DNA from: Planoprotostelium fungivorum
Lineage: Eukaryota > Evosea > Variosea > Cavosteliida > Cavosteliaceae
Direction: 5' to 3'
Length of the DNA stretch: 64,000 bases
NCBI GenBank assembly: GCA_003024175.1
Contig: MDYQ01000036.1
Span: forward strand, 1-64,000
The position numbers were made by a program, and so were the translations under genes. This document shows, in pieces, positions 21,787 through 64,000 of the stretch; positions within the stretch are counted from its first letter, which is position 1, and each line of letters begins with the position of its first letter. The notes below the pieces were generated by a model that worked only from the letters and a program-made list of their open reading frames with translations, had not been told where the DNA came from and made no database searches.

Positions 21787-24723
21787 TTAATGAACAATGC
21801 CTCCCTCGCCAGGAGTCGTTTCGGGAGTAGGTGAGACGGGAGGTTGCTTGTATGTAAGTTGATCGTACGTTGTTGGCGCATCAGCCCAAGGTCTTGGGCC
21901 CAAGAGTTGTGTCAGGTCGTCGCGGCTGATGACCTCCCTCTGAAGCAATAGCTGTGCCACCTGATCCCACTCAGCAACATCTCTTCATACTCTTCACCTT
22001 CTCCAAGTTCTCCTTTTGGTTGCTGAGCAGATCTTGTGTGTGGTTGAAGGCTGTCAGCACCAACTTTCTAGCCTCTTCATCGATCAACTTTCCTGTGGCT
22101 TCACTGTAGCTCTTCTCGGGGACGTACTGGCTGCCCGTGTTTCCATCGTAAGACACTGTACCGATGCTCTCGTTCATTCCGTACAGAGCCACCTTCCACC
22201 TTCAGTCACCTCACTGGCAATGACCCACCTGAGAATAGGCCATCTTGGTCACTTTGTCGAGATCGTCACTGGCACCTGTGGTGATCTTTCCAAACTTGAT
22301 GATCTCTGCGATTCTTCCTCCCAATGTCATGCAGATGCGGTCAAACAGCTCTTCTTTGGAGTAGAGATTCTGGTCTTTGGGCTGGTATTGTGCATACCCG
22401 AGGGCTGCTACACCACGAGGGACAATGGAGACCTTGAGTAGAGGATCTACGTGTTGGAGGTACCATCCGGTCACCGCGTGTCCTGCCTCGTGGTAGGCCA
22501 CTGTCACCTGTCTCTGTCACTTTCGTTTCACTCTCTCTCACCTTCTCCTCTGGGGACATGATCCTGTTCTGTCTCTCTGCTCCTCCGATGACTCGCTCTA
22601 TGGCTGACTCTAAGTCGTTCATCGTCACTGCGGGATGACTCCTTCTCGCAGCGTAGAGGGCTCCCTCGTTACAGATGTTGGCAATGTCTGCTCCCGAGAA
22701 GCCAGGAGTGAGAGTGGACAGCTTCTCTGAGTAGGTGGACAGATTCGTCTCTTCCAACTTGAGCTTCTTGAGGTGAATCTGGAAGATGTCGTTCCTTCCC
22801 TTGATGTCGGGGAGGTCGACCAAGATCTGTCGATCGAATCTCCCGGGACGAAGGAGGGCCTTGTCCAGGATGTCTGCTCGGTTGGTGCCCGCCAAGATGA
22901 CCACTCCGGAAGTGCTGTCGAAACCATCCATCTCCACCAGGAGCTGGTTGAGTGTGTTCTCTCTCTCATCGTTCGTTCCCATCTTCGATCTCTCCCTTCC
23001 CATGGCGTCGATCTCGTCGATGAACACGATGCAAGGGGCGTTCTCTCTCGCCTCTTTGAACAGATCACGCACTCTGGCTGATCCCATTCCTCCGAACATC
23101 TCGATGAAGTCACTTCCTGCCACACTGAAGAACGGAACAGAGGCCTCCCCTGCCGTGGCTCGAGCCAACAGTGTCTTTCCTTTCACTCGTCACTCCTTCG
23201 TCTCTCTCTCTCTTCTCACCAGTTCCTGGTGGTCCCACGAGGAGAGCTCCCTTGGGAATCTTGGCACCTTCTCGCTTGAGGATGAGAACTGTCAAACCTC
23301 TCACCTAATTTCTTGTATTTGGGTGCGTTCTTGAGGAAGTCCACAAACTCCATGACTTCCAACTTGGACTCATCCATACCGGCCACTTCAGAGAATTTTG
23401 TCGTCAGTCCAGATTCCTTTGTGATTCTCTTCGCCTTTGACTTTCCAAATCCGAACATGTCCTTTTCATCTCAGTAAGATCGATGGATGAAATGTGGAGT
23501 ACTCACAGCCCCTCTTCCGCCTGCCCTGGACCTCCTCATCACAAGGTAAAATACACCAAACACCAGTGCCAGAGGAATCAATGCTCCCAAGGATGCCCCA
23601 CTATCAAAGTGAGAACTCAATCATCAGGTGGTAGAATCAGAGCTCAAGAAAGATCAAAAGAAAGATCAAAAGAATGATCATGAGAGAAAATGAGAGGAGA
23701 CAACCATAGGAGATAATAGAGGACAGTGAGAGGAGATAATAGAGCACAATGATAGAAAATGATAGAGAATAATAGAGGACAGTGAGAGGAGATAATAGAG
23801 AACAATGATAGAGAATGATAGAGGAAAATAATAAAGGGGTAGAGGGAAATACACACATGAGCTGTGATCCAAATCCCCTTCCGTGATACTGTACAGGGAT
23901 GTGATCAACGACGTCGATACCCAGATCATTCTGAGCTTGCTCCAATTGCTTTTCGAACAAGCGAGTGTCTCCTATGGTGAACATAAAGTCTCCTCGAGGC
24001 GAACCGTTCTTGATGAACACCCGGACCATGTTCATTTGTGTATCTACCGTCAGTTTTTCCACCTTTCAATGTCAGCGAAGGTCTCCATCTCCATCACACC
24101 TGTCCAGTCTGTAGCACGGTATTCTTGAATGTGTACCAATCGATCTCCGGGCTGAAGTTAGAGCCCATGAGATAGCTAACGAAAATGAAAGTTCCAAGAC
24201 TTCCAGCCACGAGGTACACCCAGGTACCCCACTCTAATCACATCAATTGAATCATTTTTTTGTGAAAGTCTACTCACTGCCGCTCTGGTTCCCTCCTGAG
24301 AAGGGAATTCTCCCTCCTGTTGTATTTCAATCTTCGATTGAATGTTGATCACTCACTGGCTTTCTCTCTCCTCTCTCTTGCCTCTGAGAAAGACCACATC
24401 TTCGGTCCACTCTTGGACTCTTCAGCTCCTCCCGTTTTCTTCTGCTCTTCTTTTTTCCCCTTCCCTTCGCCCTCCTTCTGCTTGTTGTCTTGCTCATTGT
24501 TGGCCTCTGATTTCCCTTCCGAATACCAGCGTCTTCCCAGAGAAGTGTTTATTCTCAGCATTCCACTGTTGATGTGACTGTACTGTTGTGGGAGTGCAGC
24601 AGTGGAAGTGAAATGGCCCAATCGTAATTCATTATATGTCACACGGTTATTCAAAGATAGAATAGCATTAGTTCTCTTGACTGGAAGTAGTTTTGAAGCG
24701 GAGTGTGTCTGTAACCTCCACAT
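21787..24723 (-). CDS. mitochondrial m-AAA protease, AFG3L2/FtsH type
   Basis: Membrane-bound ATP-dependent zinc protease of the mitochondrial inner membrane. The preferred start at 24723 gives [17 protein letters not shown], a basic amphipathic leader; an upstream in-frame ATG at 24804 is possible. A Lys/Glu-rich linker, TM1 ([19 protein letters not shown]), the intermembrane FtsH-extension domain and TM2 ([16 protein letters not shown]) follow. The AAA+ domain has Walker A GPPGTGKT split by an intron, Walker [10 protein letters not shown], and the arginine finger in [11 protein letters not shown]. The peptidase has HEAGH and the third ligand in TTGASDDL. The pore loop reads MFGGMG where MFVGVG is usual. 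It ends with [15 protein letters not shown] at 21789-21787. It is divergent from eL27, 144 bp away. Confidence 0.94.
23715..23830. repeat. 56-bp tandem duplication in a purine-rich intron
   Basis: AATAGAGGACAGTGAGAGGA starts at 23715 and again at 23771, and the two 56-bp units differ at only a few positions. Simpler GATAGAGAAT-like and AAAGATCAA repeats surround them. The unit sits in a roughly 220-nt intron of the m-AAA protease gene, long for this genome. Confidence 0.85.
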
Positions 24724-33111: not shown

Positions 33112-34170
33112 ATGTCGCTGTCAACACTGAGGCTGAGGGTGCCTCTCATCGTTGCACCCATGGCCGGAGGACCTTCGTCACCTCAGCTCGTCGCTGCCAC
33201 TTGTGAGAGTGGTGCTCTTGGATTTCTTGGTGCAGCATACCTTTCTCCTTCACAGATCATTCACCAATCGGAAGACATCAGACGACTGACAGAGAAACCT
33301 TTTGGCATCAATCTCTTTTGTCCCAATCCTGCATTCGACCCTCACACCTTTCCAAAAGAAATAATACAAAGAGGAAAGGAGAGACTGGAGCCTTTCTTGA
33401 GAGAAATGGGAGCAGCAACTCCCAATTTGGATCCACCCTTCGATGAAGACTTCTATCGTCAATTTGACGCTGTGTTGGAGGCCAGGCCAGCTGTACTATC
33501 CTTTGTCTTTGGTGCACTACCAGAAGATTGCTCGAGACGAGCACGAGAGAAGGGAATTCTGCTCATCGGCAAGGCCACCTGCATGGAGGAAGTCGACAAG
33601 TTGTCTCAGTCCGGGGGCATCGATGCCGTGGTGTTGCAGGGAGTAGAGGCTGGGGGTCACAGAGGCATATTCGACCACAAAGCCCCAGATCCCAACATCA
33701 AGACGCACGACCTGCTGAATCAATGTGTGTCCTCGCCACAATACAAGGACCTGTACAAGATCGCTGCCGGTGGGATCATGAGCGCGGAGGACATCAGGAG
33801 GGCACTCGAGTCAGGAGCAGATGCAGTTCAGATGGGAACAGCTTTCCTCGCGTGTGAAGAAGCTGGCACCTCGGCTCCTTACAAAAGAGCCTTGCTGGCT
33901 TCTGAAGAACGGAAGACCAGGATCACGAGGGCTTATTCTGGTCGATTAGCCAGGGGATTGATCAGACCTTTCATGGATGAGATGGAGAAGGAAGAGATAC
34001 TACCCTTCCCGATACAAAATTCTCTGACTAAACCGTTGAGGGCTGCCTGCTTGAAGAACGACACAGATAAGTACATGTCCTTGTGGGCTGGTTCTGGAAG
34101 GGGAAAGATCTGGACTGGGAAGACGAGAGACCTGATCAATCAACTGTTTCCTTCTGTACATAAACAATAA
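33112..34170 (+). CDS. nitronate monooxygenase (2-nitropropane dioxygenase family), intronless
   Basis: FMN-dependent TIM-barrel enzyme of the NMO/NPD family, which oxidises propionate-3-nitronate and similar nitroalkanes. One uninterrupted frame of 352 codons runs from MSLSTLRLRVPLIVAPMAGG to the TAA 34168-34170. Family blocks visible are the N-terminal PLIVAPMAGG, the ATCESGALGFLGAAYL loop, GVEAGGHRG with the conserved His, the phosphate-binding IAAGGIMSAEDIRRALESGA, and ADAVQMGTAFLACEEAG. Length is normal. It is the only long intronless gene among neighbours with many introns, and the family is mostly bacterial and fungal, so acquisition by horizontal transfer is plausible. AATAAA (34166-34171) overlaps the stop codon. 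The convergent nucleoporin stop is 12 bp away. Confidence 0.93.
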   Translation: MSLSTLRLRVPLIVAPMAGGPSSPQLVAATCESGALGFLGAAYLSPSQIIHQSEDIRRLTEKPFGINLFCPNPAFDPHTFPKEIIQRGKERLEPFLREMGAATPNLDPPFDEDFYRQFDAVLEARPAVLSFVFGALPEDCSRRAREKGILLIGKATCMEEVDKLSQSGGIDAVVLQGVEAGGHRGIFDHKAPDPNIKTHDLLNQCVSSPQYKDLYKIAAGGIMSAEDIRRALESGADAVQMGTAFLACEEAGTSAPYKRALLASEERKTRITRAYSGRLARGLIRPFMDEMEKEEILPFPIQNSLTKPLRAACLKNDTDKYMSLWAGSGRGKIWTGKTRDLINQLFPSVHKQ

Positions 34171-34182
34171 ACCTTTGTCGAT

Positions 34183-37100
34183 TTATTTTCTGCTTGCCCA
34201 CATGTCACCGGCACCAGGAGTGGTGGGAGCGCTGCCAAAGACAGAGCTATTATTGTTGTTGAAAGCAGAGAAAGGGCTGCCGCCTGCCGGATTGTTGTTC
34301 GCCGCACCGAATGCACTTGCTCCCGGTCCTGCAGCAGCACCAAAGCCACCTCCACTACCAAAGGGAGACGTCTTGAATGCATTGGTCGCTGTTCCCTGTC
34401 CAAATGCGGAGGTCGGTGTGGTCTGTCCAAAGGCGGAAGGTGCTGTGGTCTGTCCAAAGGATGACTGTCCAAAGGCAGAAGGTGCTGCAGTCTGTCCAAA
34501 GGCAGAAGGCGCTGCGGTCTGTCCAAAGGCAGAAGGTGTGGACGTCTGACCGAAAGCTGAGGCCTGTCCGAAAGCGGAGGGGTTTGAGGTCTGTCCAAAT
34601 GCAGAGGGTGTAGAGGTCTGACCGAATGCAGAAGGAGTAGAAGTCTGGCCAAAAGCAGAAGGAGTGGAAGTCTGACCGAATGCAGAAGGAGTGGAAGTCT
34701 GACCGAATGCAGAAGGGGTAGAGTTCTGACCGAATGCGGAGGGAGTGGTGGAGAATGCTGAGCCGATGGTGGGTGTGGGGGAAGTAGGGAAAGCGGAGGG
34801 TTTGGGAGTGGTCACGAAAGCAGAACCGAGGTTGTTGACAGGTGCGGGGTTACCAAAGGGGTTCTTGGGGGGTGTCCCAGAGGGAAGGGTGCCTCCCAAT
34901 CCCATCGAACTCATCGACATCGAATCGTTGTTTCCAAAGACACTGCCCCCCGTCCCTGCGTTTGAGAACCCTGCGATCGTCAGTCTCTCTTTTTTTTTTT
35001 TTTTCCGTGTTCCTCGATGGACTCACCCGATGATTGTCCGAATGCAGAGTTGGTCTGACCGAAGGCATTCGTTGGTTGGGCGGCGCCGAATACGCTGCCC
35101 GTTGTAGATGGAGCCGTAGCCTGGCCGAACACACTGCCCGTTGTAGATGGAGTGGTGGCTTGACCGAACACACTTCCCTTCGCAGGAGCGGTGCCCTGGC
35201 CGAATACACTGCCCGTTGTAGATGGAGCCGTGGCTTGACCAAACACACTGCCCGTTGTAGATGGAGTGGTGGCTTGACCGAACACACTGCCCCCTGCGGG
35301 TGGGGTCGCAGCCTGACCGAACACACCGCCCGTTGTAGACGCAGGTTGACCGAACACGCTTCCCTTCGTGGAGGGTGCTGCAGTCTGACCGAAGACGCTG
35401 CCCGTCGATGTAGCCCCGGTCTGTCCAAAGACACCTCCCGTCTTCGCTCCTTGTCCAAAGACACTGCCGCCGGTGGGTGCTGTCGTCTGACCGAATACGC
35501 CGCTGGTTGTAGATGGTGTGGTGGCTTGACCGAACACGCTACCGGATGTCGATGGTGCTGATGTCTGACCGAATACACTTCCAGTGGATGGACCACCGAA
35601 GGCTGATTTGGGGGCGGTGGTGTTACCAAAGGTAGAGGGTGCTGTGCCAAAGACACCACCACTCGTGCTGGGTGCACTGCTCTGACCGAACACATTTGGT
35701 TTCGTTTGATCGAATACGGAGGGTGCCGATGTAGATGGTGCTGTGCTCTGACCGGGTGTCGTGGTGGAAGGGGGTGTGCCAAAGACTGTGTTTGTTTTGG
35801 ATGGCTCAGTGGTGGATGCACTATTTCCAAATAGGTTCGTGCTGATTGCAGGTGTAGGTTGGCCGGCTGTAGAGAGAGTGGGAGTCTTGGTGGAGCTCTG
35901 TGGCTTGGTTTCAAAGAGGTTCTTCACCACAGGTGTTGCTTCTGGTGTGTTGGTAGGGACTGCGCTCTTCTCTCCCAGAGCAGATGCCTCTGTCTCTACC
36001 TCACTCTTTGATGTATCTTTGGTCTTTGGTTCCGTCTTAGGAGGGACCGCTGAGGTGGGTGTGGAGATGGAAGGTGCAGGCAGAGCAGAGGGTGTGGGTA
36101 GGGTAGAAGTGATGGGAGTGGAGGATGTGGGTAGAACAGAGGGTGTGGGTAGAACAGAGGGTGTGGGTAGGGTGGAGGGTGTGGGGATGATGGGTGTGGG
36201 CAGGGTTGTTGTGAGCGTTGATTTGGGTGCGGTAGATCCGATGGGGGAGGGTGTGTTCAGCTTGAAGGGCAGGGGACCACCCTTGGTGAAGGGTGTGGTC
36301 GTTGTGAGGGGAGAGCCCTTGATCGATTTACCCGACAAGAGGGACGTATCAGAACTCTCTGGGCCCACGACACTGATGGAGGATGGAGGAAGGGTGCTCG
36401 TCTTGGTGGAAGGAGGGGTTGTGCTCTCTGGTGCCTCGATCACATCGTCTCCTCCCTTCGAAACAAAGAAGCTGGATCTGTGACTGTGAGTCGAAGAGAG
36501 AGATCATCCCTCACCTCCTTCCGTGAGATGCCTGAGGTGGCGTGTTGAATTCGAGCTTCCTTCCCACTGTCGAAGGTGAGAAGAGATCGACTCCATCAAT
36601 GTCTCTCACCTCCAGAGTCCTTTCCTTCCCTGTCGCCTTCATTGACACGAGAGATGGGAATGGAGGGTGTCCTCAATACGGAAGGTGTTCGGTTCTGCAG
36701 TGCACTTCGCAGTTGATCTAATTTCATCTTCCTTCCAGAGTCCTCCTGAGGATTGTAGAACACACCCGGTCGATCTCTCAGAGGGGTAGAAGGGACAGAG
36801 TGCCATCCCTCTTCCTTTGCCTTCGTGGAAGAGACATCGTTGTACTTGTGCGTCATCTCCTTTGTCTTCTTCTCCATCTCCTGTGCAGGGTCACACCTCG
36901 TCTTCTCTTCCTCTCACCCAGAGTGTGTCGTTCTGTAGGGTCAATCGTGCCATCTGATCTCTCATTGTGGTGTAGATGATCTGCACTTGGTCTTCCTCCT
37001 CCTGCCTTACAAAGGGAGCGATCTTCTTTGCCGTGTGTCTCTGCACCGTCGTTCTCTGGATGCCCTTCTCGTCTCTCACCGTCTCTAGCATCAAGACACG

Positions 37101-47185: not shown

Positions 47186-50100
47186 ATGTGGGCTGTGTTC
47201 ATCACCTCGATTCTCTGCTCTATCACTTCGGTGTTGGCTCAATCGGAGGGCACCATCTTGAACAATCTGAGAATTGCCGGTGGTGGCTCCTCTCAGACTG
47301 CTCTAATCTCGCAAGTGAATCACTACTTCTTCTCGTTTCCTTTTCATCTGATCGACGGCAGCCGTGCACTTTTGTCGATCCGAGTGGGTATCTTTCCATC
47401 ACGTGCGATGTGATCGGTGGGGTCTCCACTCTGACTGTGAAAGGACTGAATGGCACTCTCTCTCCTGATATCGGTGTGTTCATCTTCTCTGTCGCAGTTC
47501 AACCTCATTTATGAAGGTCTTTTGACCAATCTGACCTCTTTGACCATCACAAACTCTGTCAGAGGACCGCTACCCGTTTCTCTCGGCCTTTTGACCGGTC
47601 TGAAACAACTGACGATCACGGGGAATCAGGTCGATTCGTCTGTCCCAAACCTTAGTGGCCTTCATAATCTCACATATATCAATCTGTATAGCAATGATTT
47701 CACGGGTGACATACCCTCTTATTGGTGTGATGTGGCCCAACCGAACACCATCGTCATGAACCAAAATCAGTGAGGAGACAGGAAGACCTACGAGTAACTG
47801 AATAGATATAGCTTCACTGGTAATATCTCTTTCGTTCAAAACTGCATCAATCTGAACACACTCAATGTGGTGAGATTTCTTCAGACAACTCACCTTTGTG
47901 TTGTCACTGAGAGAAGGCCAGGGCAGCAATGCTCTATCAGGAGAGATGCCTGCCTGCCTCTTCAATTCATCTCTGACGAGCGTGGATGTGGGTTACAGTC
48001 AGATGACCTTCCCCTCCATTCCACCGATCTTCTCTGGTCCTTCCCAACTTACATCGTTGGCTCTTCGCGGTACACATCATCATCATTGATTGATTTTTCT
48101 CACGAACGACAGATACGGGATTAACAAGCTTACCTTTTTGGCTTCTCCAGAGTCTGACGAATCTGCGTACTTTCTATCTGGACGGAAACCGTCTCAGCTC
48201 GCTGCCGAGCAATTTTGGATCTTCACTGCCGAATTGCGTCTATATCGATCTAGGAATCAACTCCATCCCCGTGTCATATCTACCGATGCTCTTCGGCATG
48301 AAGAGCATCCAGATAATATACATGAGTGCTAATAACATGAACGGCACCATCGAGATCGATCAGCCTTCGAATCTACAAGTATTGGACTTGTCGGGCAATC
48401 GCCTGTCTGGAGACCTGTCCTTCCTGAAGAAGATGGTCAGTCTCACGGATTTGAACATGAACGGTGCGTTTCAGGTTCCAAATCAAGAGGAGAGAGTGTT
48501 ACCTTCGTTCATCGGCTCTCTCAATCAGCTGAAAAGCTTCACTCTCAGGGTGACATTCATGTGGAACGGATACCTTGATACTGAAAGAGATCAGGGAAAT
48601 AATTTCACAGGGTCCATTCCTGCTGCTTTATCAAATCTGACGAAGCTACAGAAGTTAGATCTGAGGTGAGCATCTCGGTCTATCATTCTCACATCCCTTG
48701 ATCAAGAGACTTTTCTTGACATTTATATCAGTTCAAACTCTTTCTATGGCTTCGTCCCTTCCTTTTTAAACGCCACCGTGTTTCCTTCTCTCACATCCAT
48801 CGATCTATCCAGAAACTCTTTCACTCTCATCGACGAGAATGCCCTCAGTGGTTTCCCATCTACCTGCTCTATCCTCGATAATCCTCTCTCATGCTTCGCC
48901 TCTCAGCCTATTGATTCATCGTGCGAGTTACCCCCACATGCAGCCTGTCCATTGAGATTGCTGTACAACGAAGGGACGTTGATCTCATCGAATGACGCAC
49001 AGGTGAGAATGGAGAGGAGAATGATAGTTGAATGAGAGTTCAGTCTATTTTGGAGAATTTTAATACGTCGGATAGCCAAGTGAGCGATTTAAACCCATTT
49101 CTCTTAGGATACGATGTGAAGTGAAGTGACTCAAATATGATCGTAGATCACAGAGGTGGTGGCAGCTGTGATAGGGTCCTTGGTGAGGACAACAAAGAGG
49201 TTCACGTATACATCAAATTCCACATCAATCAGCCTGCAGACGTACAACAAGAACGAAAGCAGCTCAGCGAGAATAGAGAATGCAATTAACGGTTCAAATT
49301 ACGCCGTGAGTCTACCTTGGTCATCCGTGTCTACGAAAGATCAAGGTGAGAGTGTATAATGCGAAGGAATGAAAGAGAAATGTATTGACGATACCAAGTG
49401 TCGGTGGCTCTCTCCTCCATTCTTCTGAATCCTTCTCTGTCTATCTACAGGGAATCGATGTGAGGAATGATCACCATCCATCCAGAGCTGACAGAGTGAC
49501 GAAGAAGAGGCAGAGTGGTAGGAGTGCAAGTGTACGATGGTAATGGAAGAGAGGTAGAGATAGGAGGAGTGACAGAGAGAATCAACATCACTATGGGCTT
49601 CATCGATGCCATACCGTCTGATCAAAGTGAGTTGAAAACGATCTCGCTATTTTAGGGCTGAAAGAGACAGATGCTGTGTGTCAGTGGTGGAATGAGGTCC
49701 AGAAAGAATGGTCGCGTGATGGATGTGACCTATATGTAGACGAAGCACGTCTGGGAGTGTGCCAATGCAGCCATCTCACAAACTTCTCCATTGGCGTAAT
49801 ACCAGCCGACACTGCAGCCGTGATACCACAAATGGGAGGAGGAATGTCGACACAACTGATGATCATAATCATCTGCTCTGCTGCTGGTGGCTCTATAGTC
49901 ATTCTATCCATCATCATTCTGATCGTCGTCGTGCGCAAGAAAAGAACGGTGAGTGATGTATCTCGAGATCAAGGCTGAAAGAAGAAATAGATCAAGCATG
50001 AGACCACGATGGAATTGATCGGAGGAGAAGACATGAGAGGAAGAGTCAAGATGGAAAGAAAGGAAAGAGAAGAAGAAGGCATAGAGACATGGAAGGCAGT

Positions 50101-51120
50101 GTGTGACGGCGTGACTGCAGTGTGCGTGATGAAGGCAATGGATGCAAGAGGTAAAGCACAGATGACGAGAGAGGCAGCTATGTTGCAGGTGAGAGAAGAA
50201 GGGCAGATGATGTACAGGGCAGCTGAGAGAGAGACAGAGACAGCATCATCCGATGATAGTGATGTATCTGGGACAAGACAGTGCAGGTGATGAACCGTCA
50301 GAGTGAAGAAGGAAGAGACTGAGAGAGAACAGAAGGGTACATAGTAACAGAATGGATGAACGTTGGAAGACTGCGAGAATATGTTAGAAGAGAGGCACTG
50401 GATTTATTTACCGTATTGAAAATGTGAGTGAGAGTGAAGGAGAGAGAGGACTGATAGAGATGCAGAGGGGAGGATGTGGCGAAGGGAATGACGTATATCC
50501 ATGAACAAGGTCTTGTTCACACTCATCTGACAGCCAGCAGCGTGAGTGAATACTTCAAAGAAATACGATGCTAAATACGAAATGCAGGTGTTCCTGAGCG
50601 TGATCGACAGAGAAGTGACAGCGAAGATAGCCAACATGGCTCATGCTGTCACAGAAGGCGACAGAGCAGAGCAGCGACAGATTGGCCCACACACAGTGAG
50701 TGACAGCAGCGAGAAGAGAGCTGACAGAGAACGAGGCGCCAGAGGTAGAAAGAGAGGGAGTGTACAAGAAGGCATCAGATGTGTACAGCTATGGACTGCT
50801 TCTCTGGTCAATGGTCGAACAGCAAGACGTATCTGAGAAGGTGATATATATAAGATCAAAAGATGTGCTGAACTAGTTTGTAGACGGGTCATCGTCTTGC
50901 GACGAGAGAGTCTTCCACTATCATGACTAAAAGCTGGGACACGGGAATGAAAGCTCTTGTGCTCGACTGTACGCAAGCAGAAGATAGACCTAAGTTCTTC
51001 GATGTCGCGAAGAAACTGAGAGTACGAAGACAGACACACTCCGCCAATATCACGAAAGATGATTATACGAAGCACAAGAGAAAAGACGAGGAGAGCGAGC
51101 ATTATGGGTCTGATCTCTAG
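47186..51120 (+). CDS. LRR receptor with GPS motif, one TM helix and a degenerate kinase (pseudokinase) domain
   Basis: Type I receptor of over 1,000 residues in many exons. The start at 47186 gives a signal peptide, MWAVFITSILCSITSVLAQ. An N-terminal cap with PCTFVDPSGYLSITCDVIGG is followed by about twelve leucine-rich repeats, such as NLTYINLYSNDFTGDIPSYW, LQVLDLSGNRLSGDLSFLKK and NNFTGSIPAALSNLTKLQKL, and a Cys-rich LRR end. A beta-rich juxtamembrane region ends in a GPS motif, CQWWNEVQKEWSRDGC then CQCSHLTNFSIGV. The helix TQLMIIIICSAAGG to IIILIVVV is followed by a kinase-like domain. It keeps the beta-3 Lys (VCVMKAMD), the alpha-C Glu (REAAMLQ), GYIVTEWMNVGRLREYV, EAPEVE and SDVYSYGLLLWSM. 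The catalytic loop reads HTHL instead of HRDL, and the metal-binding DFG is replaced by ANM. TAG 51118-51120. Confidence 0.87.
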
Positions 51121-51232
51121 TTTTTGGAATAAATTGGGATCCTTCTTCGTTCTTCTGCAGATAGCAAGTGATTTCGCTGTACTAATTTGAGTTATTCTCA
51201 ATCTCATTTATTTCTCTTTTCGAACTGTATAC

Positions 51233-54200
51233 TCAAATCCATGCATTCCATCCCACGTACATCATGGCTAGATTCTCTACAGAGGTCGCATGACCAATCT
51301 GCAGGTGCACTTGTGCGTCCACCGATTGCTGAAATCCAGCGGAGCCTTTCCCTTGCAGCCTCTTGTCCAACTCTAAGATGATCCTCGTCGCCTCCTCTTG
51401 TGCGCTGATTGGTTCGGAATAGCCCTTCTACTCTATGAGCGATATTCTCCGCTTCCACTCACCTTATTCTTCTTCTCTTTCAGCTCCTGCAGAGGATCGT
51501 AGATGAACGTCTCCAGGACACTCAGTAGAGTCTCTCTGTGTTGTCGGATGAGAGACAGAGACTGCCTGCAGATGTTGACGAATATCCCCTTGTAGCCTAG
51601 TATTCCCATCACGTCAAGCATGTTGTTCGTCAACCGAAATGGAACCGTCTCGGGCTCAGCGAACGTCAGTCCCTTGTAGAACAAACAGTTGAAGTCCACG
51701 TGAACACAATCTCCATTGTTCGCATCGAGCATGATGTTCTCAGAGTGTCGATCTCCCAATCTAATCATCGTTATTATCCCACTTACATCGATGATATCGT
51801 GATGTGCATGGTTATCGTGATTTGATGTCCGATGAGCCCACCCCAGGATGTATCCGATCATGGACATGACCGCACACGATTTCGTGAATGAATTTCTGGC
51901 CTGAAGCCACGAAGAAGGATCACTGAACTTCTCCAAATACCACTTGTGCATCACGGGAGAGCTCCACCACTGCTGGATCTCTTTGAACTTTTGTATCCTA
52001 TCTCGAATGAGAATGGTTCGTCTCACGATTTCTCACCGGATGTCTGGTGGCATCTTATTCTTGAGTTCACCGGCGGTCTTTTTGGTGAGAGCGACGTAGG
52101 CACTCGAGCCCATCTGTTGTTCGAAGAGGGGAGAGACAACGTTACGAATGGTGTGAGTGTTATCCATCCATTCGATGATTCCGTTCAGTTCGTCCAGTGG
52201 TACCACGCTATACGTTCGAATGTAAAGCTGATGCTTTCGGCAGTTTCCGTCCTTTCTGAAGAGGATGTTGATCATCGTGTTGATCTCCATCGTCCTCGCA
52301 TCGTGTCTCAGGTCATCTTTTGGCTTACACAGAAAGTGACACCTCTTTCCTTCGTTCGTCTGCAATGTATCGTCAATAAGAGTCGATATGTATCCGTCTC
52401 ACCAGCCACGTCATTTTCTTCGGTCTAGCGATGGAGGACATGATGATGACGTGGTCTTCCAGCTCTCTGACAGTCGTCGGGTTCCTGTGGAAACCGTTGT
52501 ACGTTTCACCGGGTTTACCTCCCTCTTTGTTGTGAGGTAATTCGATGGTCATGGCAGCTTGTAGGGGGAGAATGATCTGATAGCTGGCCAGGTCTTTCAG
52601 GTAGCGGAAGTAATTGGTTAGCCTTCCCTTCTGTCGGCTGATGTCGAATTCTTTGACTTTCTCCGGCTCGATGGTGATGTGGCACATGTCGGTCAGGAAG
52701 GCAACGAACGTCTTGAATTTCTCGAGATAATTGGCGAGCTCCTCTGTCTTTGATTCCTTCCTGGCCAGTGTATCTACATCTATCGGATGATGTCAGTTTC
52801 ATATATATAAGAGGATGAGAAATCGATATCGAATACCTTGTGCACGTTTGCTTCGATTCTGTTCTTTCGATTGATTTACGGAGGCCATGAGCCAGCTGGT
52901 CTGCTTGGGATATGTCTTCAAGACTTTGCTCAGAACTTGTCGGATGAAACTGAAGGCCGCCTTGTTGTTGTGACAGATTCGACTGATCATCTGAGGTAGA
53001 ACTGTGTACCATTGGTAGGCACAGATATCTGCATTCTTCACGATCCTATCATTGTGAGCCTCCTCGGTGCCGTTTCATTTCTCCTCTCACTCGCTGACTT
53101 TGTTGTATCTCTCCGTGATGACCTTCATCTCTTTCGTCTCCTTCTGGCTATTCAGCAGCAGAACATTCGTGCCGAAATCAAAGTAATTGGTCAAGAGTCT
53201 CGGTAGAGAATGATGGATGTATTCACTACCAATGGAAAGTGATTTCGCTGGCCTCGTAAGACAGACATCAGATGTTTCAACTCACAGTAACCATCTATCG
53301 CGTGGAAGAACCAATCGAGAGGTAAGGCAGGATCGATGCTCGATTTGGCCGTGAAGATGTGCGTCTCACCATGCTCCCTCTGATATTGAATCCACAGCGA
53401 ATCACAGTACCTCCCCCACTGAAAGTATCCCTTCTCCCAACTGCATCGTTATTCAGTCTCTCCCCTCTCTCTCTTTCTCTTCTCACTTGGATCTCCTCTT
53501 GACCACCGTATCGTACATGTCTACCAGCTGAGGTGGATCACACAGCTCCATAGACTGTGACCACCTCGCTATGGAGAGTAAGATTCTCCCTTCCAAGGCT
53601 TGATCCTCTTTCTCCTTCTTCTTGTTGTCTCGGTAGGTCTGGAGCATCTGCAAGGCCCTGTGTTGCTCTCCCTTCTTCCACAAGATCTTCGTCTCTTCGA
53701 TGAGCACCCCTTGTCCTCCGTCTAATTTGGAGCGTGTGAGGCAACTGGAGGCCATCTGAAGGATGTCACGATCGATTATATCGAAGAGAGACACCTGAAG
53801 CTGATCTGCTTTCCTGGCCAACTTTGCAATGTTTTGGGAGATAACGGGAATCATTGGATGTGATATCTTTGTCTTCTCTTTCAAGATCTCCAGTAGAACT
53901 CGTCTGACTGTCAGGAGGGGTTCGCGAGATTTCAGCGTGTTTTCCACGACATCCATGCGTGTGTCCCACAGTCTCTCCACTTGCTTCTGATAGTTGGTCG
54001 GTGTGGTGTGATTGTCCATCAGCATTAATGAAAATCTCTCGATCTCAGTTAAGATCTGAAGCTTTCCCAGGAGAGAATAAGAAGCTTCGTACGATTGAAG
54101 TGTCGACACACTGAGCGAAGCCATGATGTCTTGTCTTCCTCTCTTCAGCGATAACGTCAGCTTATCTCTCTCTCCTTCTCTAGTGGCCAGCAGACACCTG

Positions 54201-57200
54201 TTGCAATGATGATCCATACAAACGATCTACATCAGAGTTTACCTTCCCACTTGGACTTCGAAGCCATCATCGACAGGATGAGATAAGAAGGTGTTCAAAT
54301 CGGTCCAATCGGATAATCTCCAAGCTGCGTGAGATGCATACGATCGTAACGTCTTTCCGTTGATGTCCTCCTCGTCCTTCCTCGTGTTCAGAGCTTGTTG
54401 TGCGATCATTTTCATCGTCTGTGTCTGTCCTCCGTGCTGCAAGCATTCCAACAGACCCACCTGTCAAGTATTGACAAAGATGAAGAGACGTAGAAATAAA
54501 GAAGTTGTACTCACGACGTGTCTGATGTCATTGGGGTTGGCTTGAATGCACTGATCGTGAATGTTCTGTGCTTCGGACCAATTTCCAGAGCTCTTCAGAT
54601 CGAAGAGGGTCTGTTCTAAGGTAGTCTCTCCTCTGATGCTGGACAATGCCGCCAGATTCATGTGATCTCCCAATCGATGAAAAATCTCCTCCAGAGCTTC
54701 CACGTTGGCCATCAGACATCCACTGCAGATGTCAGATCTTCCACCGTCGCTCGTTGTCTCACCTGTCGTTGTGTTTGCTCTTGATGAATGATTCCAGGTG
54801 CAAGAGAGATCTAGCGTAATCTTTGCATCGGTAGGCTGCCCTCGACATGGTCATCTGAGGGATGTTTGAGAGGAGCTGCTCCACCGAACTCTTGGGTTCC
54901 GTTGTGATTCTTCTGTTTCCCTTCTTCCTCTCCGATTCCTTCTTTCGAATGGTCTCCAGCCATTCATTCAACCAATCGATCAAGTAGAACACTCTCTGAC
55001 TGCACATGACCACGAATTCACTGCTCTCCTCTTTCTCCAAGACTCCTGACATGAGATGAGTGAAGAACGATCGATCCTTCTCACCTAACATCTCGTGAGA
55101 GATAGAGGGCACGTATTCTAGGTTGTGATTCAACACGTCGATCAACACGTAGGGTAATAGATATAAGGTCGTAGATAGATCATCTCGAATGACACCCCTG
55201 TGACGAATGAATACGTCATCATCCTTATGATGTGAAAGCTCACCGACAAGCCCAAAAGATGCCTGATTTCGATCCTCTCGATACTTTGATGAGCTGTCTC
55301 GTCCATTTGATGATCCACATCCTGTAACTCGATACACTTGATATCACCGTTGTCTTCTCTTTGTCCGTGACATTCGCTTCCTCTGCAACATCTCGTCATC
55401 AAAATGGTCCATCGTTCACAATGACATGTACCATTGACATAGAAAGCATCTCACCTTTCAACTCGTAAGTGGAATTCAACAGAGGTCGAATGATGGCCTG
55501 GATGTCCACAGAGAAGCAATCCCACATGTTCGGCTCGCTCTTCTTCTTCTTGTCTGCCTTCTCCTGACACTTGAAGATCTTCAACACTTCTTGTATGGCG
55601 TAAGAGGCTCTGTCCTGCACGTTCGTGTCTCTCGATCCACCTCTCATCACTTTGATCAGGTAGTTCTCGATGAGATCGACTCCGAAGTCGTGATCAGACT
55701 GTCATCGACGATGAGTATGGATGTGATCGTTGTAGATGGCACCTTTTCTACCGGTTTATCGGGTCTCAAGTGGCGGGAGATATCGGAGAAATGGCAGGAT
55801 TCTACTGCACCAATTTCTCCGAGACACGCTGCGATCTCTAATTTGTTCTCTCTCAGAGTCTCACTGTTTCCCGCCAAAATTAAACCCTAAATCCTTGAGT
55901 TTCCAATCGATCTTGTACCACTCACCTTGACGAGAGCTTCGATGACTTTTCTATACTGTGGATCTCTAGAGTGCAACAGACCATCTCTCAATTCATTTCC
56001 TCTCTCTTCGAGTAATCCTCTCAGTCGTGTGAGCGTGTAACTCCGTATGTTGGCGTTCTCGTGTTCGATCGCTCGAGCCAATTGATCCAGTTGGTCCAAT
56101 AGACCGATGGGCTTGTTCTCCAGCACTTTGCACACTTCCTTCATCGTCGGATATTCATCGACATGTAGGGCGAACGGAATCTGACATCGTGAGACGATAT
56201 CATCGATGGGATCTTCCCACCTCTTTGAAATATGGAGACATCTGCTGCTTCTTCTCGATGACGATGTACTCGAATATCTGCTTGACGATCTCCTTCACGT
56301 CATCCGGTGCACCCTCCTTCCCGAGAGGTGACAAAACTACGAAGACTTGTCCCATGATTCCTCCCAAGTGTGGCACGTCCAGTTCTTTGACAAAAGTGAG
56401 CCACGCTTGAACTGTCTCCCGATGCACATCCGGATGTAATTTGATGAGCAGCTCCAACGTCGACGCCACCTTCGGTCGATGCCCGCAGATGTGCTTGCCC
56501 AAGATATCGATGAGCTTCTCGATGGATGTCACTAGGCTCTTCTTGCGTAGCAATTTGGTCTCTTCACTCGAACTGCGATGGATGTCGCCCGACGAGCTTC
56601 TCTCTTCTCTCGGAAATAATTTTCCGTTGATGTGGTCCATGATGGAGAGGAAGTTCTGCTCTAGGAAATCGGAGATATCCGTCTTCAGCTCCATGATCGA
56701 TATGACCCGATTGAGGGCGTGGAGAACCGGCTCCATCGGGTGATCTCCCAGCATCTCGGACAGTCGATAGAGAACTTGTGACAAGTGTGCCTCCAGAATA
56801 GTACGAGGTGGTACTCTCAGGATCTCGCAGAGTAGATTGAGAGAAGATTCGGTGTGGGAGGGATGGTCCACCAGGATGTTGCACAGTAGCTCCGGGAGGC
56901 AGTCCAGGATGAGATTTCCTCGACTTTTCGATCCGGTCTTCTTCTCCAAACGCTCCAGGGCGGTGTTTCGTTCGTCTCTCGGTCCGGTCATGATGTACGT
57001 CAAGATATCGCAACTGCTCTTGCTGTACCATTCCTCCAAGGCTTGTTTACTCTCTAGCCATTGTTCGATGAGGCTGTCGTTACAGTTCTCCACGATAATT
57101 CTGACACATTTCCATCAGTTCTACACCGTACAGACGATCTCACTTGTAGGGTAATTTTCCGTGGAAGGAATCACTGTCGTGATCCAGTAATAGATTCCTC

Positions 57201-60200
57201 GGTTTCGATAGTTCCTTGTGTGTGGTGATGACATTGATCTGCTCGGATACCAAGAGGGGACTTTTGTCCATCTCTTTCATGAGAGTCACGAGGATGAGCA
57301 GCAGATCATCTCCACTGAGAACACTTCCCAATCGACCGAAAGTTCGAATGATGGATTCACTTGTCTCTTCCTTTCTCTCTTCCTTCTTCATCGATACTAA
57401 TCTGTATGGGTTGAATGATCAACTCGTTCACATATGACATTACCTGAACATGAGGTTACCTAATGGAGAGTGGGCACTGTCGTTCTGTGGCCCGAACAAG
57501 TAGAAACCGTTACCCTTCATAGCAGTCTGAAGGACCAAAGAGAAGGTTTCTCTGATGGAAGGCGAGGGGTTGACGCACAGCTCCATCATCTTGTCCAATC
57601 TCTTCCACTTCTCCTCTGCGCTCACGTTCATGTGGTAGAGAATCCGAGGAAAACTCGATAGAAAAGCGGATGAAATTTCATCAGAAGAATGGAAACACGT
57701 TTGAGTGAATACGTCCCAATCTACCGGTGACAAGATGGTCGGTGTAGACACATCCATCGCCTTTTCACCCGCATCACAGGCTCCTGCGTCTGTCAGAAGA
57801 GGAAGCGAAGGATATTTACCTGAGCATTGGATGTACGATTGAGAAGAGTCCGGTAGATCTCTTGATTTGAGGATGAAAGGTATTCCATCCATCTCTCTGC
57901 TGGTGATGCGGCTGCTGCCTGCGGCGATGCATGATAGTTTGCCGATGACGTCTCCTATCGATACCAAGATATCTGTGTTCTCTCCTTTCATCAGATCCCT
58001 GTTCCGCTTAGAAAATTCAAGAGATAAAATGGAAGTTTGTCTCATGATAAATCACCTCAGTAGTGTGATGAATGTGGGCATCAGATTCTTGTGATGATGC
58101 AAGAAGAGAGGTAACTGATGGATGGCCACGGACAACACAGATGGTCTCACTTCTCTCAGGCACTGAACGTAAACGTCCTCGAGCTGTTTCGAATACTCTA
58201 CGGGAAATAGGGGCATGGCCTTGATGCAGCCCTTGCAAAATTGGATGGCCCCTAGATCGTCCATTCTGAATCTCTCGTTTCCTACCTTCCATGCCAGACA
58301 GATCAAATTGAAGAAGGATGTCATCGCTATCATATCCAGAGGTGTCGGACCTGTATATCACACTATGAGCACATCTACACAAGAATATGATATGTATGAA
58401 TAAGAGTTGAATTGATTGACTCACTGGTCTTGAGGCAGACCTGTACGATTCCAACCAATATCGACATCGTTGATAAGACATCCTTCTCTACACTCTGCAT
58501 CATCATTGATCAGAAACTCATCGCACATCATCATCACTCACCCCCTGATTCACCAGATCGACTACCCTCTGTATGATATTCTTCACGTTCCTTAGCAAGT
58601 GATCGTAATTTCGATGGCCCAACAAGTGGACCCTCAATGCCGTGTCCAGTGATGCGACACAATTGGAGATGAACATCCAATGATCAGGGCTTCCTGTCCA
58701 CATTGCCAAGTGTTCGTTCAGTGCCGTTTCGATCTGGGAGAAGAGGATCGACGGGTCACCCTGGACATTTGAATCTTGAGATAATCTCCGTTTCTTCTTG
58801 GCTCTCTCTTCTCCTTCTTCTCCTTCTCTCTCCTTCTGTATGATGAGGTAGTAGTTGCGAAGTATGACGCTCTGAAGGGGTACGGAGGCGATCTGCTTGG
58901 AGAGGTAATACATGTAGCTGTCTTGCAGTGGCTTCGTTTCTATGGCGACACCCAGTAGAGTGTACAATTGACTCAAGATCTTCACACTCGTCGAGGGAGA
59001 TTGATACTTATCCAGCAGCTTGTCCATCTGTATGGAATCTGGGGTGATGGCTGCAGATCCAGAATGCTTGTAGACCATGTCATTGATGGTGCTGCCGATC
59101 TCATCGCAGAGTGCAGACGACTCTTCGTCTGAATCGATGGTGTCCCAGCTCAAGAGAAGCAGCTGATCGATGAGAATAGATAGACTCTCTACGATCCATC
59201 GATCGATGACGTTCAGCCTCACGATCATACTGTGGATTGTGCTGATGGAAGCCTGAGATCATCAGCACGATCATACGATCTAATGATGTGATCGCATCAT
59301 GAGATCGACAAGTTGATGACCGTCACCCTCTTGATGTGAGGATTCTGCGTAAGTTGGATCTGATGGAGAAGACACTCCCAGAGAGGACGATCTTGATCAT
59401 CCAATAGTTGAGGTACACTCGCGGTCAGACCCTTCACCACCTCCATCAATCCCAGAACAAATTGTGCATCTTTTCCTTCCCTCCCTTCTTCTAATTCGAT
59501 GTCGATTCTCAGATATCCTGATTCATCTCAACGAAATAAATCGAAATGTGTATATTATTATTATATAGAATGATGATCACCGTTTTCGTAGGTTGGACCT
59601 AAAGGAAAAGATTGGCACAGTTCAGGACAAGCTTTGATGATTCCACTGAAGGACTTGATCTCGATGACCAGGGGTCCGGCCTGACCAGAAAATTGCGACA
59701 CGAGAGAAGGATGAGCCTGAACTAATTCTGCGACATCTGCGAGGGATGAGAGAAATTTGTGTGAACATCACCTCCGAGGAGCGTCAGAAGATCATCGAAT
59801 AAGATGCGGAACAAAGGTGGGTTGATCACTGTCAATTGGATCAAAAAGAACGTGAAAGGGATCGAGTAATCACCAGCCATACAAGTGATTGCCGAGTGTA
59901 ACGTGCTTAAAATGCGATGTCTGAACGGTAGATACTCTGCAACTGCCATGTCTATGATAAAATTGGGAAAGAAGGCGCAAGCCATCTGTGGGGACATGTG
60001 CGTCTGTTGCTCACAAAATTTGATCAGCTTGTTGAGGAGATCACCGGGGCAAGAAGAGTCTATTCATTATTTGAGTAGAGAAGGAGAAGAGGGGTGAATA
60101 TCGACTCACCAGACAGTAGATTATGTAGAGCTTCCACAAATGGGCGCATGCTATGCTCTGAAGGTGGACCATTAGGCACACTAGAAGATATATCACCGCT

Positions 60201-62245: not shown

Positions 62246-64000
62246 ATGAGACTGATCCTCCTTGTCTCTTTCTTATGTGTGGTGCAGGGAGATGTCTTTC
62301 TCCCCTTCTCGAGTAATATACCAAATCTACGTTCTTTCTTTGACGGTCTTAACGGTAAACGACTGCACCACAACTTCAGAAATCTGATCTCCAGAAGGAA
62401 AAGAATGGTTCAACTCGTCTGGATGGTTTCAGAGCCCCGATCCGTGCGATCAGAGCTGGTATGGCATCAATTGCAGCATCATCACAGACCGGACAAAGTT
62501 TCCCATACCAATCCAAGTTGCAAATATCACCCTCCAAAGAAATAATCTGAGAGGGAGTATCACCTCCAGCGTGAGCGTTTCAATGATCGAAGAGCCGACG
62601 TAATCATCACGGACAGATCCCCTTCGCCCCGCTGCTCAATTTGACTGGAAATGATATCGGTGGTATCGTCAGACCAGAGGCCATTTGGACATACACCGTC
62701 GCTCTCGATCTGTCGATGGTGAGGTTCCGGAACGAGATCGAAAATCAACCCGATGCACAGAACCGCCTGGAAGGATCGATTCCAGACTTGTCCAAGTACA
62801 GCTTACTCCAATATGCTGACCTCTCTGGCAACTATCTCAACGGAACCGTTTCATTCGACTCCACGACATCACCACTTCAATACCTCGACCTATCGGTGAT
62901 CGTCACATCCACGTCAACATCTCACAGTCAAACAGAACAACAAGCTGAACGGTCAAATTCCCTCCAATTTAGGAACGGCGAACCTCGCGTTGGTGAACTC
63001 TATTTGTTTCATGTGATGATGTAACGGCTTCTGCAGCTGAATCTGTACAATAATCAGTTCTTTGGGGTCATACCTCCCTCTTTCTGCGGACTGCAGCATC
63101 TTCGACTGTTAGACCTGTCTTACAATCTACTCTTCGGAACGGTGCTTCTCTCACCACTTCACCATCAGACTCATCACCTTCTAGATCCCTTCGTGTATCG
63201 GCAATTTGACGAATCTGGAAGCCCTTTTCCTCCAGTCTAATCTCCTCCAAGGACATCTACCTCAGGGATTATATCTATTGAATCAGGTCAGTTTCACTTC
63301 ATCTCCAACATCACTCAATTCTGCAGCTGGCGGGCTTAAGATTATCACGAAACAAGTTCTCCGGCAGTCTTTCCACTGGATTGTCTAATCTAACAAATCT
63401 CGTGGTACGTGTTCATGATCATCGATCGATTCACATCAGATGTAGATGATCGAAATGGATGACAATCTCTTGGAAGGCTCACTTCCCGAGCTGACTCCCC
63501 TTCCAAACCTCTTGGCCATCAAGTTAACTCAAAATCGATTCAGCGGTTCTTTGCCAGCTTCGTTCATCGCTCACCCGCAGCTGAAAGAATTATCACTGAG
63601 TTACAACAACCTCTCGGGCTCTGTACCTCGTTTTCCAGGTGATTCTCTGTCTCTCACCTCCAGCTGACGTACGACAGGATTGACCACCCTGCAATTATTG
63701 TACCTTGATCACAATAACTTCAGCTCAGTCATTCCATCGGAGTACTTGTTAAGCTTGACCAATGTTCAAGTCTTCGGTGAGCCCGTCCTTCATCTACGAC
63801 GAGACTGAATGATGGAAGATCTTTCTTACAATCATTTCTCGGGCCCCGTACCATGTGAGACGATCGATCTTGATGTGAATCTGACGTGATCAGTGATTCC
63901 GCCATCGGTGAAGAGTCTGACTAAGGTCGTCCTGAGTCACAATCACTTTGAAGGAGGCATGCCACCGTATCTGGCCCCATATACGGGCCTGTCTTATCTC
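62246..64000 (+). CDS. leucine-rich-repeat receptor-like protein, 5' part (runs off the window)
   Basis: The start at 62246 gives a signal peptide, MRLILLVSFLCVVQGDVFLP. An LRR N-terminal cap with WFQSPDPCDQSWYGINCSII is followed by at least ten plant-type LRRs across many short exons: LEGSIPDLSKYSLLQYADLS, LNLYNNQFFGVIPPSFCGLQ, NLTNLEALFLQSNLLQGHLP, NLLAIKLTQNRFSGSLPASF, LQLLYLDHNNFSSVIPSEYL and VVLSHNHFEGGMPPYLAPYT. The repeat type (LxGxIP) matches the receptor at 47186-51120, so the two are probably paralogues. Whether this one also has a GPS motif, helix and kinase-like domain lies beyond 64000. Confidence 0.8.

Follow-up and report, generated by a model that had tools for sequence, protein, structure and literature searches.

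As predicted from its spliced sequence, the gene at positions 47186-51120 (+) of the window (the whole 64-kb stretch of DNA analysed here) encodes, in this order, an LRR ectodomain, a complete GPS motif, one TM helix and a cytosolic, catalytically dead kinase-like domain. Each of these parts is known, and no published description of their combination was found. A literature search for a single-pass GPS-kinase receptor (LRR-GPS-TM-pseudokinase) returned no description, in agreement with the sequence-only reading, which knew of no such system, although this does not prove absence; unnoticed eukaryotic relatives likely exist. We consider it moderately probable that the LRR ectodomain is self-cleaved, stays non-covalently held and is shed or shifted, and that the kinase domain, itself non-catalytic, passes the signal on to a partner kinase.

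Gene structure and domain order

Three-frame translation of 46.9-51.3 kb and a manual splice model gave one gene of 18 exons encoding 978 aa, with the ATG at 47186 and the stop codon at 51118-51120. Both ends given by the sequence-only reading (47186 and 51120) were correct. Introns were picked by frame, donor and acceptor on the three-frame translation. All 17 are GT-AG and the spliced frame has no internal stop. Fifteen of the 17 measure 34-66 nt, the remaining two 144 nt (49003-49146) and 164 nt (49346-49509).

47315-47361, 47474-47516, 47770-47805, 47870-47921, 48070-48112, 48550-48594, plus strand: introns 1-6
48666-48731, 49003-49146, 49346-49509, 49627-49664, 49949-50002, 50189-50243, plus strand: introns 7-12
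50287-50332, 50424-50465, 50542-50587, 50696-50729, 50841-50883, plus strand: introns 13-17
49451..49459, plus strand: candidate 9-nt microexon inside the 164-nt intron, which would add GNR

A few acceptors are ambiguous by several residues (e.g. 49655/49664/49670), which leaves all key motifs unaffected; alternative acceptors such as 47497 and 47926 were dropped because they broke the frame. Judging from its flanks, the 164-nt intron may hide the 9-nt exon, which is preceded by a pyrimidine-rich tract and AG, is followed by GTGAGG and keeps the frame. Codon usage was coding-like in each domain part and not in the introns. The juxtamembrane and kinase exons and introns (49950-50760, +) are markedly purine-rich (GA) on the plus strand, and GC skew and AT skew each reach about +0.12 across 50001-52000.

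Pfam and hydropathy analysis of the spliced protein confirmed the proposed plan of signal peptide, LRRs, GPS, one TM and kinase-like domain; the LRR, GPS and kinase matches all exceeded the Pfam cut-off. The features up to the membrane are as follows.

47186..47239, plus strand: signal peptide, aa 1-18 (MWAVFITSILCSITSVLA), hydropathy maximum at residue 1
47410..48873, plus strand: LRR ectodomain, aa ~60-452, introns included (Pfam matches; LxxLxL motifs)
48874..48948, plus strand: Cys-containing cap 3' of the last LRR, aa 453-477, three Cys (sequence, position)
48949..49777, plus strand: region 5' of the cleavage site, aa 478-638, candidate short GAIN domain (position and length only)
49676..49792, plus strand: GPS motif, aa 605-643 (PF01825; ADGRF1 match)
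49778..49852, plus strand: stub that would remain after the predicted cleavage, aa 639-663 (TNFSIGVIPADTAAVIPQMGGGMST), cleavage predicted from HLT
49853..49933, plus strand: single TM helix, aa 664-690, then RKKR (Kyte-Doolittle)

The LRR part matched LRR_4 (E 6.4e-26) and LRR_8 (E 2.3e-21) and contains 9 LxxLxL motifs; the Pfam LRRCT model did not match the cap (aa 453-477). In a tblastn search of the 64-kb window with the LRR, GPS and kinase parts, a second GPS or kinase copy was not found, and the sole further match was the other LRR gene at 62.3-64 kb. This gene (62300-64000, +), which runs past the window end, carries repeats of plant-like type (PF00560, E 6.8e-18) and, at its N terminus, a W...DPCDQSWYGINC segment. 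It is a possible paralogue of 47186-51120; the window ends before a TM or kinase could come into view.

Other genes were observed in the window. On the minus strand lie the neighbouring PIKK gene (51433-59258), ATR-like by eye, with a PI3/PI4 kinase domain (E 2.7e-36) and a UME domain (E 2.1e-15), an FG-repeat nucleoporin region (34983-36503; PF13634, E 5.8e-22) and an AAA ATPase with lid domain (22344-23189; PF00004, E 1.2e-36), FtsH/AFG3-like by eye. On the plus strand, a nitronate monooxygenase-like gene (33112-34167; PF03060, E 6.6e-71) comprises 352 codons without introns.

The GPS motif and its predicted cleavage

In the spliced protein the GPS matched PF01825 with E 2.1e-08 (35 bits versus a cut-off of 22.5). 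The residues C606, C621, C633 and C635, W608/W609 and W616, and H637-L638|T639 are all present, so that the intact motif claimed before (both Cys pairs and HLT) was found in full, Trp residues included. The HLT fits the consensus at the cleavage site, His-Leu/Ile-Ser/Thr (PMC13197933). The closest solved GPS in the PDB was that of the adhesion receptor ADGRF1 (E 2.7e-5), with those of D1 and L3 also among the nearest. A relaxed pattern, CxCxH[LIM][ST]x[FYL], had a single match in the six frames of the 64 kb, against 0.0 per window in 200 shuffles; because this core pattern never appeared in the shuffles, the GPS motif is no chance product. Viral contigs scanned with the GPS exon gave no match.

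The GAIN domain is both necessary and sufficient for cleavage, and shorter GAIN versions, in which subdomain A has two or three helices, still cleave (PMC13197933). From the LRR cap to the predicted cut the protein has 161 residues, compared with about 320 in the first solved GAIN domains (PMC13197933). The Pfam GAIN model matched neither the spliced protein nor the pre-GPS region, and a PDB search with this region, GPS left out, returned no GAIN structure; its matches to antibody chains and designed helices were dismissed as chance. Inspected by eye, the region contains a plausible helix (ITEVVAAVIGSLV) and the strand-like stretches TSISLQTY, NYAVSLP, VVGVQVYD and RINITMGF. AlphaFold2 applied to the GPS exon by itself gave a pLDDT of 51.6, too low for use.

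A GPS motif may exist yet stay uncleaved. The motif could then be structural, a disulphide-knotted juxtamembrane module in an ordinary intact LRR receptor pseudokinase. We regard this as unlikely: the shortness of the upstream region (161 residues) and a GAIN fold undetected by sequence would agree with it, whereas the cleavage tripeptide is intact, as are all four Cys and the Trp residues, and in an uncleaved protein the HLT could drift freely.

In the self-cleaving mechanism that we prefer, the GPS would cut between Leu638 and Thr639 during biosynthesis, and the outer fragment with the LRRs (1-638) would stay bound, non-covalently, to the membrane fragment (639-978). GPS cleavage in known proteins produces two fragments that remain associated (PMC13197933). 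The TM helix (aa 664-690) reaches a Kyte-Doolittle value of 2.7 over 19 residues, is the sole such segment apart from the signal peptide and carries a small-residue patch, SAAGGS. Intramembrane proteases accept substrates with short stubs, and the 25-residue stub would be short enough for such cleavage. By analogy with Notch, the membrane fragment might be cut within the membrane after shedding and the pseudokinase released, a reading that is very improbable and draws purely on this analogy.

Neither hydropathy nor Pfam gave a seven-TM domain 3' of the GPS; one TM is followed by the kinase domain up to the stop. In adhesion GPCRs, the freed tethered peptide binds inside the 7TM bundle. The tethered-ligand receptor proposed by the sequence-only reading is weakened by this, because the mechanism needs a 7TM core and with one TM the receptor pocket is absent in cis. 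It is improbable that the freed stub, TNFSIGV, instead acts in trans, as the tethered agonist of a 7TM protein or another partner in the manner of adhesion GPCRs. Just past the cut, the sequence is similar to TxFAVLM, the agonist core in adhesion GPCRs (consensus in PMC12716839), yet this likeness may merely reflect the last GAIN strand; the missing pocket in cis and the lack of a known partner also count against it.

The kinase-like domain

50078..51018, plus strand: pseudokinase domain, aa 721-945, introns included (PF07714, PF00069)
50120..50134, plus strand: beta-3 strand VCVMK, aa 735-739 (Src alignment)
50171..50173, plus strand: alphaC Glu, E752, kept (sequence)
50518..50529, plus strand: catalytic loop HTHL, aa 820-823, HRDL in active kinases (sequence)
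50633..50641, plus strand: NMA at the DFG position, aa 843-845 (sequence)
50736..50744, plus strand: APE motif, aa 866-868 (sequence)
51019..51117, plus strand: charged C-terminal tail, aa 946-978 (sequence)

The domain matched PF07714 (PK_Tyr_Ser-Thr; E 1.4e-25, residues 737-945) and PF00069 (E 2.2e-16), and its closest PDB chains were TYK2, EGFR, CTR1, RAF1, CSK and Src. The NCBIfam kinase matches were all far under cut-off and without meaning, and prokaryote genomes scanned with the kinase part gave no match.

The catalytic loop reads LVHTHLTASSV, aligned with YIHRNLAARNV in TYK2, which confirmed the HTHL reported earlier, and the alphaC Glu (E752) and the APE-like motif (866-868) were found as claimed. 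AKIA-NMA-HA lines up with KIA-DFG-LA; the reported loss of DFG stands, and the motif given as ANM is correctly read as NMA. The beta-3 Lys had been regarded as retained. In the best alignment, a weak phmmer match to Src (E 0.4), VCVM-K stands opposite VAIK-T, and since this alignment is gapless through a common Trp, the Lys position is likely Met738; the Lys that had been meant is probably Lys739, one residue off. No glycine-rich loop was found in the segment 5' of beta-2 (EREEEGIETW).

With HRD replaced by HTH, DFG by NMA, the Gly loop lost and the beta-3 Lys probably lost, the domain is therefore classified as a pseudokinase. As both the HRD Asp and the DFG Asp are clearly lost, it is predicted to be catalytically dead, its residues indicate a greater degeneracy than previously stated, and ATP and metal binding is expected to be poor, if there is any. 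The kinase fold is probably kept because the alphaC Glu, APE and the C-lobe remain. The dead kinase also held against splicing that restores HRD and DFG, which had been set as its refutation: DFG was absent from every plus-strand frame of 49949-51130, and the sole HRD in these frames is both misplaced, 5' of the beta-3 strand, and in the wrong frame.

It is highly improbable that the gene is a decaying pseudogene or mis-spliced, its catalytic residues having drifted away or being restored in another isoform. The very degenerate ATP site and the two introns that exceed the others in length (144 and 164 nt) would fit such a history, whereas 18 open exons with all splice sites canonical, coding-like codon use in every domain, an intact C-lobe and APE, and the lack, in the plus-strand frames, of an HRD or DFG at the right position argue against it. 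Since its codon usage is coding-like (0.174 in frame versus -0.29 and -0.14), the kinase part is no obvious decayed remnant, and 47186-51120 is probably no decayed gene.

Proposed signalling and comparison with known systems

In the preferred self-cleaving mechanism, a ligand of the LRR part, or tension applied to it, would loosen or shed the outer fragment, and this change would alter the pairing of the membrane fragments (25-residue stub, SAAGGS patch in the TM). The dead kinase domain would not phosphorylate but would dock onto an active partner kinase and allosterically activate or release it. The ErbB3 and JAK pseudokinase domains likewise work through an active partner kinase. In plants it is experimentally established that the LRR receptor kinase EFR can activate BAK1 without catalysis (PMC11259431).

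It is possible, though we suggest it tentatively, that the protein stands for a class found in a unicellular lineage: LRR receptors with one membrane pass that undergo autoproteolysis at a GPS and signal via a pseudokinase, GAIN/GPS acting on its own as a switch for shedding or force. If so, the GAIN/GPS module works independently of 7TM and channel cores. The host is a eukaryote whose genes have many short introns, and may be an amoebozoan such as Planoprotostelium; in that case the module would act in a lineage for which a survey reported no GAIN domains among family 2 GPCRs (PMC10445921). If the protein is cleaved, a receptor without a 7TM core can make use of the GPS module, and the self-cleavage role (a two-part, sheddable ectodomain) would be separable from the tethered-agonist role, a distinction still under debate for adhesion receptors. 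The known non-catalytic LRR receptors would then be joined by one that has a dead kinase and a release switch of its own.

Adhesion GPCRs such as ADGRF1 likewise possess a GPS with four Cys and H-L-T, but they have seven TM helices and G-protein coupling, whereas in the present protein a single TM leads to a kinase-like domain. ADGRA2/3 place LRRs ahead of GAIN/GPS, and polycystin-1 combines a GPS with LRRs. Like the present protein, polycystin-1 and the sea-urchin egg-jelly receptors are membrane proteins other than GPCRs; they undergo autoproteolysis at the GPS (PMC13197933), as is predicted here. They differ in their REJ, PLAT and multi-TM channel region, all absent here: Pfam found neither a REJ module nor a PLAT domain, and one TM was found instead of the 11 TM of the polycystin-1 family. 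The sequence-only reading assigned the GPS/GAIN module in animals to adhesion GPCRs and polycystins, which was broadly right, with the egg-jelly receptors omitted (PMC13197933).

The protein has the plan of an LRR receptor kinase (signal peptide, LRRs, TM, C-terminal kinase domain). Plant LRR receptor kinases such as EFR likewise have a signal peptide, LRRs, a single TM and a kinase domain that can work non-catalytically (PMC11259431). Unlike in these, the kinase domain here is closest to TYK2, CTR1, RAF and Src in the PDB. BIR2 and STRUBBELIG are further plant LRR receptor kinases with non-catalytic function, and no plant LRR receptor kinase is known to carry a GPS. Receptor pseudokinases of animals (ErbB3, and the TYK2 pseudokinase, which is cytosolic) have kept the fold, lost catalytic residues and use a partner kinase; they share fold retention and catalytic loss with the present protein and are without an LRR-GPS ectodomain.

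Among amoebozoans, Dictyostelium has nine TKL kinases of classic receptor architecture (PMC1420674) and in Acanthamoeba seven tyrosine kinases are predicted to have TM domains (PMC4053784). GPCR-TKL/K and GPCR-TK fusions, which occur in choanoflagellates, oomycetes and amoebozoans, likewise join a receptor module to a kinase in unicellular eukaryotes (PMC12716839). These fusions have a 7TM, whereas in the present protein a GPS module without 7TM is joined to the kinase.
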